A DNA stretch of 64,000 nt from Pelagibacterales bacterium SAG-MED47 (GTDB taxonomy: Bacteria > Pseudomonadota > Alphaproteobacteria > Pelagibacterales > Pelagibacteraceae): contig JACWEO010000004.1 in assembly GCA_014653355.1 (NCBI GenBank), positions 1 through 64,000 of the forward strand. The letters are read 5' to 3'. Shown here piece by piece: positions 6,543-11,719 of the stretch. A model generated the notes under the pieces. That model worked only from the letters and a program-made list of their open reading frames with translations, was not told the origin of the DNA and ran no database searches. Each line of letters starts with the position of its first letter. The stretch's first letter is position 1. A program made the position numbers and the translations under genes.

Positions 6543-9500
6543 ATGAAAAAAGAATTAACAGACCTATTTAAAAATTCAGAAATTTCTGAAGCTCAAAATT
6601 TTAGTAGTATAAAGATATCTTTAGCAAGTCCTGAAAAAATTAAATCTTGGACATATGGAGAAATAAAGAAACCTGAAACCATTAATTATAGAACCTTTAG
6701 ACCAGAAAAAGATGGTTTATTTTGTGCAAGGATATTTGGCCCAATAAAAGATTATGAGTGTTTGTGTGGTAAATATAAACGAATGAAATTTAGAGGTATA
6801 ATCTGTGAAAAGTGTGGTGTTGAAGTAACTAAATCAAATGTTCGTAGAGAAAGAATGGGCCATATAAATCTTGCAACACCAGTTGCTCACATATGGTTTT
6901 TAAAATCTCTGCCAAGTAGAATAGCCCTAGCTGTTGATATGAAGCTCAAAGAAATTGAAAGAGTTCTTTATTTTGAAAATTTTATTGTCATTGAACCTGG
7001 TTTAACTGGACTTAAGAAGAATCAACTTTTAAATGAAGAGGAACTTGCAAAATATCAAGATGAATTTGGGGAAGAGGCATTTACTGCTGGAATTGGTGCA
7101 GAGGCAGTCTTAGAAATGCTCAAAGGTTTAGATTTGGAGTTAGAAAGAAAAAATTTATCGAGTTACATCAAGGAGACTAAATCTAAAGTTAATGAGGAAA
7201 GAGCAATAAAGAGATTAAAGTTAATTGAGTCGTTTATTGATACAGGTCAAAAACCAGAATGGATGATTATGACAGTTGTTCCTGTTATACCGCCTGAATT
7301 AAGACCTTTGGTACCTTTAGATGGAGGAAGATTTGCAACATCTGACTTAAATGATCTTTATAGAAGAGTTATTAATAGAAATAATAGATTAAAAAGATTA
7401 ATGGATCTTAAAGCTCCAGACATAATAGTTCGAAATGAAAAGCGGATGCTACAAGAATCGGTTGATGCATTATTTGATAATGGGAGAAGAGGCAGGGTAA
7501 TTACAGGCACAGGTAAAAGACCGTTAAAATCTTTAGCAGAAATGCTAAAAGGTAAACAAGGAAGATTCAGACAAAATTTATTAGGTAAAAGAGTTGACTA
7601 CTCTGGCCGTTCAGTAATTGTGGTTGGGCCTGATCTAAAATTGCATGAATGTGGTTTACCAAAAAAAATGGCCTTAGAATTGTTTAAACCTTTTTTATAC
7701 GCTAGATTAAATAAACTAGGGCTAGCATCAACAATTAAACAGGCTAAAAAATTAGTTGAAAAAGAAACTAATGCAGTTTGGGATGCTTTGGAACTTATAG
7801 TAAGAGAGCATCCGGTGTTATTAAATAGAGCACCAACACTACATAGATTAGGAGTTCAAGCATTTGAACCTAAATTAATTGAGGGTGATGCCATCGAATT
7901 ACATCCATTAACATGTGCTGCTTTTAACGCTGACTTTGATGGTGATCAAATGGCAGTCCATGTTCCTTTGAGTTTAGAAGCACAATTAGAGGCAAGAATA
8001 TTAATGTTATCTACAAATAATATTTTATCTCCATCAAATGGTAAACCAATAATTGTACCAAGTCAGGATATGATATTAGGTATTTATTATCTTTCACAAG
8101 AGCTAGCCACTGATAAACCTTCAGGGTATTTTTTGGATGCTGATCAAATCGAATATGCTTTATCCTCAGGTCAAATAAAAGTTCATAGTACAATTATTTC
8201 AAGATTTGAAACTAAAGATGAAAATGGTAATAAAAAATTTGAGAAATATACATCAACCGCAGGAAGATTTTTATTAGCAAATTTACTGCCTCAAAACTTT
8301 AATATAAAATTTTCATTAATCGACAGATTATTACCTAAAAAAACTGTTTCTGAAATAATAGATATAGTTTTTAGATTTTGTGGACAAAAAACTACAGTTA
8401 TTTTTTGTGATAAACTTAAAGATTTAGGTTTCAAACACGCATTTAAAGCTGGTATTTCATTTGGTAAAGACGATTTAGTAATCCCTTCAAACAAAACTCA
8501 ATTAATTGATGATACTAAAAAATTAATTGCTGATTATGAAACTCAATATGCAGAGGGTTTAATTACAAGAGGTGAAAAATACAATAAAGTAGTTGATGCT
8601 TGGTCAAAATGTACAGATAAAGTAGCAGGTGAAATGATGAAGGGTATCTCTGCTACAGAGAAAACATCTGAAGGATTAAAAATAAATTCAGTATTTATGA
8701 TGGCGGATAGTGGTGCGAGAGGTTCTGCAGCACAAATGAAACAATTAGCTGGTATGAGAGGATTAATTGCAAAACCCTCAGGAGAGATCATTGAAAGCCC
8801 AATAACTTCAAATTTTAAAGAAGGATTGACGGCTCTTGAATACTTTAACTCTACTCACGGCGCAAGAAAAGGATTAGCTGATACAGCACTTAAGACAGCA
8901 AGCTCAGGATATCTTACAAGAAGACTTTGTGATGTAGCACAAGATTTAACAATAACAAAAAAAGAATGTGATTGTAAAAATCCAGGATTTATAGAACTTT
9001 CTGAAATTTTAGAAGGTGGAAATGTTGTTGTAAGTTTATCAGAAAGAGCTTTAGGAAGAATTACATTTGATGAAGTAAAAAATCCTATTACAGGGGATAT
9101 TGTTATCAAAAAATCTACTATGATTGATGAAGCTGGATGTGATTTGATTGATGCTGCTGGGGTAAAGTCAATTAAAGTTTATTCAGTAATGACTTGTGGA
9201 AGTAAAGAGGGTGTTTGTGCAACTTCTTATGGAAGAGATTTGTCCAGAGGAAAAATGGTTCATGTTGGAGAAGCAATTGGTATGATTTCAGCTCAATCAA
9301 TTGGTGAACCAGGAACCCAACTAACTATGAGAACGTTCCACGTTGGAGGAACAGCTTCAGTAAAACAGGATTCTCAAATAGTCAGTAAAAGTGAAGGTAT
9401 TCTTAAAATATTAAATTCTAATATTTTAGAGGACTCAAAGAAAAATTTAATTGTTATGGGCAGAAATACCCAACTTTCAATAGAAGATGATAATGGAGTG

Positions 9501-10712
9501 CAGATAGCAGTTTATAAGGTAGCTTATGGATCTAAATTATTTTTTAATAATGGTGATAAAATTAAAGCAAATACTAAAATTTGCGAGTGGGATCCTTATA
9601 CAACACCAGTAATTGCAGAAAAGAGTGGTATAGCAAGTTTTGTTGATTTAATTGATGGTGTTTCTATTCAGGAAACTACTGATGATGCTACAGGTATATC
9701 TTCTAAATCAGTAGTTGACTGGAGAGCTCAATCAAAAAGTTCTGATTTAAAACCTAGAATTACTTTAAGAGATGAAAAAGGAAATGTTATTAAAAAAGCT
9801 GATGATAATGAAGCTAGATATTATTTAGTTCCAGATTCAATTTTATCAATTAAAGATGGTCAAAAAGTTTATGCTGGTGATGTAATTGCAAGACTACCAA
9901 AAGAAACAACTAAAACAAAAGATATTACTGGAGGTTTACCTAGAGTTGCAGAATTGTTTGAAGCTAGAAAAGCTAAAGATAGTGCTATTATTGCAGAAAA
10001 TGATGGACAGGTAGTTTTTGGCAAGGAAGTTAGGGGTAAGCAAAAAGTTTCTATTGTACCTGAAGATGGAAATGAACCTTCAAATTATTTAATTCCTAAA
10101 GGAAAACATATTAACTTTAATCAGGGAGAAAAAATTAAGAAAGGTGAGTATTTATTGGATGGTCAACCTTTGCCTCATGATATTTTAAGAATTATGGGTA
10201 TTAAAGATCTAACTGAATATTTCGTCAATCAAGTTCAAGAAGTTTATAGACTACAAGGTGTAATCATAAATGATAAACATATAGAAACAATTTTAAGACA
10301 AATGCTTAAAAAAGTTGAGGTCAAATCATCTGGAGACTCAAGTTATTTACCTGGTGAAATAATTGATAGGATTAAGTTCGATTTAAATAATGAAAAACTT
10401 GTCTTAGATGGAAAAAAACCCGCAATTGGTGAAAGAGTTTTAATGGGTATTACAAAGGCTTCGTTGCAAACAGAGTCGTTTATATCAGCAGCCTCATTCC
10501 AAGAAACCACTCGAGTACTGACTGATGCTGCGATAAAAGGAAAAGTTGATCCATTAGACGGACTAAAAGAAAATGTTATAGTAGGTCGATTAGTTCCAGC
10601 TGGGACAGGTAATATAAAGAATAAGTGGAATAAAAAAGCTCTTGAAGATGATAATAAATTCTTGTCCGACCAAGAAAAGGTAGAGTCATCAGAAACCCAG
10701 GCAAATCAATAG
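6543..10712 (+). CDS. rpoC: DNA-directed RNA polymerase subunit beta'
   Basis: A 1389-residue beta' subunit. The N-terminal zinc finger is complete (C73, C75, C88, C91). The catalytic magnesium loop NADFDGDQM has D464, D466 and D468. The second zinc site is unusual: C809, C885 and C892 are present, but the position of the last cysteine in the normal VCxxC motif is S895 (codon TCT); a neighbouring C811 might substitute. Trigger-loop and bridge-helix regions look normal. It directly follows rpoB and is followed by the longest spacer in the window. Confidence 0.99.
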
Positions 10713-10874
10713 AAATAGAACAATAGTTTTTTAGTTTTAGTTTGACAAAGTCAAATTATTAAGTAATTTGGCGATGTTTTTGGTTGGAATGTAGTACTAA
10801 CTGAATGTACTAAACGCTGCCACAAATAACCTGTCAGTTATTTCATCAAAAATAAAAAAATAATTAAAATATAT
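10713..10874 (+). promoter_or_regulatory. rpoC-rpsL intergenic leader with nested inverted repeats
   Basis: This 162-base spacer is the longest non-coding stretch in the window. It holds four inverted repeats: A, 10738-10746 with 10750-10758 (9 pairs, one G-U, 3-base loop); B, 10752-10758 with 10764-10770 (7 perfect pairs); C, 10792-10797 with 10807-10812 (6 pairs); D, 10824-10830 with 10837-10843 (7 pairs). A and B share 10752-10758 and cannot form together. No T-run follows any of them, so none looks like a classical intrinsic terminator. A TTGACA box at 10742 lacks a convincing -10 partner. It may be a leader controlling S12-S7-EF-G; that role is inferred. Confidence 0.45.
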
Positions 10875-11246
10875 ATGCCGACTATTAACCAATTATTAAA
10901 AAAAAAAAGAGTTAAACAAATTACAAGGAATAAGGTTCCTGCGCTTGAAAAACAGCCTTTAAAAAGAGGAGTCTGCGTAAAAGTTTATACCACGACACCA
11001 AAAAAACCTAATTCAGCTCTTAGAAAAGTCGCAAGAGTAAGATTGTCTAATGGATTTGAAGTTACGGCCTATATACCAGGAGAAGGCCATAATCTTCAAG
11101 AACACTCTGTTGTATTAATTAGAGGCGGAAGAGTTAAAGATTTACCTGGTGTTCGTTATCACATTTTAAGAGGTAATCTAGACACTCAAGGAGTTGCTAA
11201 TAGAAAAAAAAGAAGGTCACTTTACGGTACTAAAAAAGGTAAATAA
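10875..11246 (+). CDS. rpsL: 30S ribosomal protein S12
   Basis: A 123-residue S12, normal length. The decoding-centre segment [19 protein letters not shown] is intact, with the lysine whose change gives streptomycin resistance in other bacteria apparently wild type. The start is preceded by a pure A/T stretch without a Shine-Dalgarno-like purine block, unlike most genes here. It begins the rpsL-rpsG-fusA (str) group after the structured leader. Confidence 0.98.
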
Positions 11247-11248
11247 TA

Positions 11249-11719
11249 ATGTCTAGAAAGAAAACTCAACCAAAAAAAAATGTTGTGCCAGATCCAAAAT
11301 TCAATTCAACAATTATTCCAAAATTAATCAATAATATAATGTATGATGGAAAAAGAGGTATTGCTGCTAAAATAGTTTATGATGCTATCGAAAAAATAAA
11401 AACTAAATCTAAAGATGAACCAATTAATATTTTCAATGAAGCAATTAATAATATTAAACCAACAGTCGAAGTAAGATCAAGGAGAGTAGGTGGTGCAACT
11501 TACCAGGTTCCAGTTGAAGTAAAAAGTAAAAGAGCACAGGCTCTTGCTATAAGATGGCTCGTAGAGTCCGCAAGAAAAAGAAAAGATAAACATATGTCAG
11601 ATAAAATATTTAATGAATTGTATGATGCATACGAAAAAAAAGGTGCTGCAGTTAAAAAAAGAGAGGATGTACATAAAATGGCCGAGTCTAATAAGGCTTT
11701 TGCACATTTTAGGTGGTAA
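11249..11719 (+). CDS. rpsG: 30S ribosomal protein S7
   Basis: A 156-residue S7, the primary binder of the 16S 3' major domain. Conserved blocks include [19 protein letters not shown] and [10 protein letters not shown], and the C-terminus ends in NKAFAHFRW. In E. coli S7 represses its own operon by binding the mRNA; here the spacer to rpsL is only 2 bases, so any S7 target would have to lie elsewhere, for example in the leader before rpsL. Confidence 0.98.

Follow-up and report, generated by a model that had tools for sequence, protein, structure and literature searches.

The rpoC-rpsL spacer and its promoter

The window (the whole stretch of DNA analysed here, 64,000 nt from Pelagibacterales bacterium SAG-MED47) carries the genes rpoC, rpsL, rpsG and EF-G in this order. 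As the initial annotation had noted, 162 nt separate the stop codon of rpoC (10712) from the ATG of rpsL (10875). The genes and the elements placed in the first part of the spacer are as follows.

6543-10712, + strand: rpoC (RNA polymerase beta'), the open reading frame upstream of the spacer; TIGR02386, 1695 bits (cut-off 963.5)
10738-10770, + strand: hairpins A and B of the initial annotation, overlapping the promoter and probably absent from RNA made from it
10742-10747, + strand: putative -35 element TTGACA, with TTGAC conserved among relatives
10764-10769, + strand: putative -10 element TAATTT, 16 nt from the -35 element, placed by comparison
10776, + strand: probable transcription start (+/- 2 nt), placed by promoter geometry, 7 nt past the -10 element
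10875-11246, + strand: rpsL (S12), the first gene after the leader; TIGR00981, 214.8 bits (cut-off 112.95)
11249-11719, + strand: rpsG (S7), separated from rpsL by 2 nt; TIGR01029, 221.5 bits

Of 147 Pelagibacterales loci, 146 have a spacer of 129-192 nt between rpoC and rpsL; the end of rpoC is missing from the remaining one. The folding energy of positions 10713-10900 is ordinary (z -1.05; 25 of 200 shuffled sequences fold at least equally well). The absence of a T tract after the stems, also remarked on earlier, was confirmed by a search for terminator-like sites, which found 0 where 0.4 were expected. In a sister family (f2; L130-L138, L240-L245) purine-rich, GGAG-like sites stand before rpsL, and the window's family is without them.

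The case for a promoter in the window is a comparative one; a generic promoter scan of the window did not call the TTGACA/TAATTT pair. TTGAC is present in all 147 Pelagibacterales spacers and lies at most 75 nt upstream of stem P2 (described below) in 211 of 212 loci, mostly at 51-53 nt. A hexamer at 16-nt spacing fits TATAAT in at least three of six positions in 210 of 211 loci, and TATAAT-like hexamers are far rarer at spacings of 15, 17 and 18 than at 16. In many relatives the -10 element reads TATTTT, TATTAT or TATTAA. The window's own TTGAC begins at 10742, 50 nt before the start of P2 at 10792 and within the class-wide range of 50-59 nt. Given the placement of TTGACA at 10742-10747 and TAATTT at 10764-10769, transcription would start near 10776. 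From this conservation we infer a sigma-70-type promoter in the spacer, with the rpsL mRNA starting right after it. The discriminator (10770-10776 in the window, and its counterparts in relatives) is G/C-rich within A/T-rich DNA (GGCGAT, GCGCA); a G/C-rich stretch between the -10 element and the start is a trait of stringently controlled promoters.

The initial annotation had read the spacer as a switchable leader in which hairpins A and B exclude each other. Their arms do pair as described, in 9 of 9 positions for A (89% complementary) and 7 of 7 for B with G-U allowed, and both hairpins are able to form in the window's sequence. However, they lie across the -35 and -10 elements, upstream of the probable start, and their pairing drifts: among 87 distinct promoter segments of the same genus, at least 8 of 9 pairs of A are kept in 26, at least 6 of 7 pairs of B in 29, and A and B jointly in 24. 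Mean pairing is 5.75 of 9 for A and 4.56 of 7 for B, with slid controls lower (at most 4.05 and 3.93). Conservation among SAR11 relatives, which that annotation had itself named as the test of A and B, came out against them. A switch between A and B in RNA is rejected on the promoter overlap and the drift in pairing, and we give this reading of the leader next to no chance.

RF01823 and the fold of the leader

A structured, conserved leader does precede rpsL, as had been proposed, with a structure other than the one drawn at the time. The Rfam search that the initial annotation had called for returned a single strong match, to RF01823 ('rspL'), and a comparison of 47 leaders of the window's genus by RNAalifold yielded the core hairpin, which consists of stem X, an internal loop and stem P2.

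10768-10856, + strand: match to RF01823, 102 bits (gathering threshold 37), E 1.5e-18
10778-10851, + strand: Rfam helices P1 (10778-10783/10846-10851 and 10786-10791/10839-10844) and P3 (10816-10819/10835-10838), a fold competing with X and P2
10781-10786, + strand: 5' strand of stem X, UGGUUG, from RNAalifold on the 47 genus leaders; covaries class-wide
10787-10791, + strand: 5' side of the internal loop, GAAUG, whose last G is invariant class-wide
10792-10797, + strand: 5' strand of P2, UAGUAC (stem-loop C of the initial annotation); covaries in the genus leaders
10807-10812, + strand: 3' strand of P2, GUACUA, pairing with 10792-10797
10813-10816, + strand: 3' side of the internal loop, AACG; class-wide [A/G]ACG
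10817-10822, + strand: 3' strand of stem X, CUGCCA, with U10785 and U10818 mismatched
10824-10830/10837-10843, + strand: hairpin D, kept in sequence and without covariation

The first ~8 positions of the RF01823 match are promoter and discriminator. Within the genus, 66 of 101 genomes have a match to the family, including 16 of the 17 most complete ones; within the order the figure is 155 of 248, all of them in one of its nine genera. The other genera have an rpoC-rpsL spacer of similar length despite the lack of an RF01823 match. When 20 alphaproteobacterial loci that bear the core, including loci from these other genera of the order, were searched against Rfam, no match was obtained. A divergent clade of the window's own genus (L122-L126) has both rpsL and the leader and is missed by RF01823; its stem X is UGGUUG/CGACCA, without the U/U mismatch.

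RF01823 is the SAR11 "rpsL motif". In the passages of Meyer et al. 2009 (PMC2704228) devoted to it, its occurrence is limited to Cand. P. ubique and marine metagenomes; it is considered there a likely regulator of ribosomal protein genes, its partner being left open. The window carries the same RNA at the same locus, with an identical P2. The fold given in those passages, however, includes P1 and P3, whereas in our analysis X replaces part of P1, and P1 and P3 show no covariation in the genus (0 of 16 pairs with both-sided changes among the 47 leaders). RNAalifold on these leaders returned X (10781-10784 and 10786 with 10817 and 10819-10822) and P2, not the Rfam P1 and P3. Both-sided changes occur in 4 of the 6 pairs of P2; X is almost invariant within the genus and hence does not covary there. 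Besides Meyer et al., our search of the literature on rpsL leaders returned only PMC2965389, and nothing on RF01823.

Comparison among six genera (g1, the window's own, to g6) gave mixed results for the two folds. In a swap test, X was supported in g5 (5.60 with its own partner against 3.80 with partners from other genera) and g6 (5.83 against 2.55) and slightly in g2-g4; in g1 its own partner did worse (3.67 against 6.40). The U/U mismatch in X is fixed in the window's genus, and the same position (11/73) is also U/U in 12 of 47 distinct leaders from other alphaproteobacteria. The pairs of P1 and P3 are formed in 86.1% and 93.1% of cells, and the duplex energy of P1 is better than that with swapped partners in all six genera; an advantage over shuffled downstream sequence is clear for g5, g6 and the single g2 alone. 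Of the further stem-loops C and D that had been proposed, both exist: C is the covarying P2, while D has a covariation score of 0.123 against 0.120 in shuffled alignments, though it is paired in 83.7% of cells. The combination of X, P2 and D (-12.9 kcal/mol) and a long P1 (full-leader minimum free energy -15.2) are mutually exclusive. The idea of alternative folds, lost for A and B, survives in this form.

A separate observation concerns other genera of the order, in which the 5' strand of P2 is also complementary to another stretch, a little way upstream of the start codon. It is seen in g5 (L098-L115), g6 (L116-L117 and L210-L227) and g3 (L128-L129 and L230-L237); in L114, for example, AAGUAAGG would pair with CCUUACUU. 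The mean z is about -2 in g3, g5 and g6 and -1.6 in g4, with no such signal in g1 (0.04). Such a strand could make the leader bistable; the window's genus is without it, and we regard it as a lead, not a result.

The core across Alphaproteobacteria and its copies before rpsJ

A covariance model, R1, was built from nine alphaproteobacteria outside the order and three members of the order's other family; neither R1 nor a further model, R2, contains any sequence from the window's family. At an E-value of 0.001, R1 matched 60 of 387 genomes of the class, always once per genome and spread over 43 of 263 genera, and with these strict filters gave no match in the other 327 genomes. Each of the best 30 of the 60 matches is followed, on the same strand and at a distance of 65-199 nt, by rpsL; among the next seven loci checked six have rpsL downstream and one (L299) has rpsJ. 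In a sample of the phylum whose share outside the class is not stated, 8 of 397 genomes matched, all of them Alphaproteobacteria.

Stem X, invariant in the genus, does vary across the class. In an enlarged alignment without the window's family, all six pairs show both-sided changes, and the covariation of X is 0.555, compared with 0.207 +/- 0.019 for shuffled alignments and at most 0.184 for slid ones. Alignments A3 and A4 were fitted to the model, A4 without the window and without a likely spurious second hit that A3 contains (L270, 1688-1725); in A2 the covariation of X is partly circular, because its 12 sequences were picked for showing the core. This selection bias of A2-A4 is avoided in a pairing test on loci chosen without X, that is, by scanning named genomes for a pure sequence pattern in which X is not used. 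The scan gave 119 loci, of which 83 precede rpsL and 19 precede rpsJ; 6 are close to contig ends and 11 lie at other places. TTGAC stands at the expected distance in 80 of the 83 rpsL loci, 19 of the 19 rpsJ loci, 5 of the 6 at contig ends and 0 of the 11 others. X forms 4.94 of 6 pairs in the pattern loci against 4.02 with swapped partners (0 of 5000 permutations), and eight chance loci have X scores of 1 to 4. The letters at the internal loop and the base of P2 (G, UA and UA-[A/G]-A-C) are invariant or nearly so in 41 rows. A further alignment, A5, was made without row L020 and, on purpose, without the divergent clade L122-L126.

Outside the order, 38 of 39 loci have a TTGAC-type box at a distance of 50-59 nt upstream of P2, the sequence being masked there in the other one, so that promoter, spacing and hairpin travel together. 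The core is not SAR11-specific: judged by these comparisons, promoter, spacing and hairpin appear to have been inherited across much of Alphaproteobacteria. Whereas the motif passages of Meyer et al. 2009 confine it to SAR11 and metagenomes, here the core extends across other Alphaproteobacteria. RF01823 is a known family that reaches far beyond its published range, and both the fold and the limits given for it call for revision.

The window's own membership was approached with both models. The only match that R1 reported in the 64-kb window is 10779-10828, with an E-value of 0.24 that is not significant alone. With filters off, R2 placed the same segment best of 10 (14.4 bits, E 0.15, again not significant alone), followed by one of 10.4 bits (E 2). 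R2 reported 4 of 25 other loci of the window's family, all from the same genus, and most other genera of the family were missed by R1 and R2. The window has stem X, the internal loop and P2 with G-UA/UA-[A/G]AC; it deviates in a 5-nt 5' loop, which is of a 4-nt type in the class, and in the one U/U mismatch in X. Its leader is likely homologous to the class-wide core, in view of the rank and position of the match, the promoter spacing, and the shared pattern and invariant letters.

In L305, L308, L310 and 16 more of the pattern loci, the promoter-leader unit is found between tuf and rpsJ (S10). The end of EF-Tu was seen upstream of the unit in 18 of these 19, the last contig being too short. 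All 11 rpsJ loci with titles shown belong to Azospirillum, and A. halopraeferens carries both copies, one before rpsL (L342) and one before rpsJ (L305). Outside Azospirillum, the core before rpsJ was found in one other family, in genome G691 (L299, 1360-1435). The rpsJ copies suggest one regulator for the str and S10 operons.

A ribosomal protein as candidate ligand

The reading that we consider rather probable is that the spacer holds a sigma-70-type promoter followed by an alphaproteobacterial leader of X, loop and P2, which most likely binds a ribosomal protein of its own operon, with S7 as the first candidate. The core is a conserved, covarying RNA upstream of a ribosomal protein gene, as is expected of an autoregulatory leader. 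The 20 ribosomal leaders of Eckert and Weinberg 2020 (PMC7247131) are elements of the same kind, found in the same way; the passages of that paper that were searched contain no S12/rpsL leader. On the preferred reading, the rpsL mRNA would form stem X, internal loop and P2 within its first ~50 nt, a ribosomal protein from the same operon would bind the core with the conserved letters, as is usual for such leaders, and free protein would reduce the output of rpsL together with its co-transcribed genes. We infer that in SAR11 such binding would act on translation, because no terminator is present. There, X, P2 and D may exchange with the long P1. The 3' strand of P1 stops ~20 nt short of the AUG, and a strand so near the start codon would make a translational switch possible.

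Control by a ribosomal protein, for which the initial annotation had named S12 and S7, stays the leading idea, with S7 now placed first. The S7 feedback target in the E. coli str operon lies in the spacer between rpsL and rpsG, whereas the 2-nt gap in the window has no room for such a site; S7 is favoured on this precedent, which Meyer et al. 2009 also cite, and on the loss of the rpsL-rpsG site. Candidate ligand, operon and feedback logic would be shared by the two systems; searching the str region of E. coli with R1 gave no hit, the top score being 8.7 bits. With filters off, the best match of R1 to the 16S and 23S of two SAR11 genomes (L290, L292) scored 9.5 bits (E 0.61), the rRNA matches being weak and mostly stem-only, and the SAR11 16S locus contained none of the motif strings taken for the S7 site of 16S. 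These searches thus gave no sign that the core mimics 16S or 23S. Many known ribosomal leaders are also without visible rRNA mimicry.

The evidence bears on several other readings. A different ligand, for example S12 or S10 (NusE), would link the str and S10 operons, and the units before rpsJ in Azospirillum, the two copies in A. halopraeferens and the copy in G691 speak for it; most copies, however, stand before rpsL only, and the E. coli str precedent points to S7, so that we consider another ligand possible but doubtful. The hairpin lies within a few nucleotides of the probable 5' end and no rRNA mimic was found, as would also suit a passive cap that guards the mRNA from decay or keeps the transcript start accessible to ribosomes, with no ligand at all. 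Yet the sequence conservation at the loop and the base of P2 exceeds what a protective stem needs, while the sequences of the stems vary, and we hold such a cap to be unlikely.

Transcription attenuation has been proposed for other bacterial rpsL leaders: the pertinent passages of Naville and Gautheret 2010 (PMC2965389) describe rpsL-leader attenuators, including those of Rickettsia, and their authors state that the Pelagibacter element fails their criteria. Those leaders share gene and position with the window's but end in terminators. Terminator-like sites between core and rpsL do occur in 6 of 39 other alphaproteobacteria, with 0.3 expected from shuffles, but 33 of the 39 have none and neither does the window; attenuation is rejected for SAR11 on the latter result and seems to us quite improbable as an account of the leader. 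The tight promoter spacing in all lineages would also fit a DNA element in the initially transcribed region of the promoter, without any RNA structure. Both strands of X and of P2 carry compensatory changes, which makes this very improbable.

Altogether, an orphan motif of one ocean clade becomes a class-wide motif, and its published fold is corrected. We tentatively entertain a wider picture, possible though hardly secure: an ancient leader, which arose together with its promoter, would allow one ribosomal protein to set the output of the alphaproteobacterial str and S10 operons, and RF01823 would be its SAR11 branch. Where the cluster was split, lineages would have copied the whole unit before rpsJ, and some SAR11 genera would have evolved a P2-competing strand that makes the leader bistable. 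Since the leader occurs in culturable genera (Azospirillum, Sphingosinicella, Zavarzinia), the ligand question of Meyer et al. is open to genetics there, unlike in SAR11. The copies before rpsJ point to a single signal acting on two ribosomal operons, and it may be that the promoter-leader unit is a control point of ribosome production that these bacteria have long shared.
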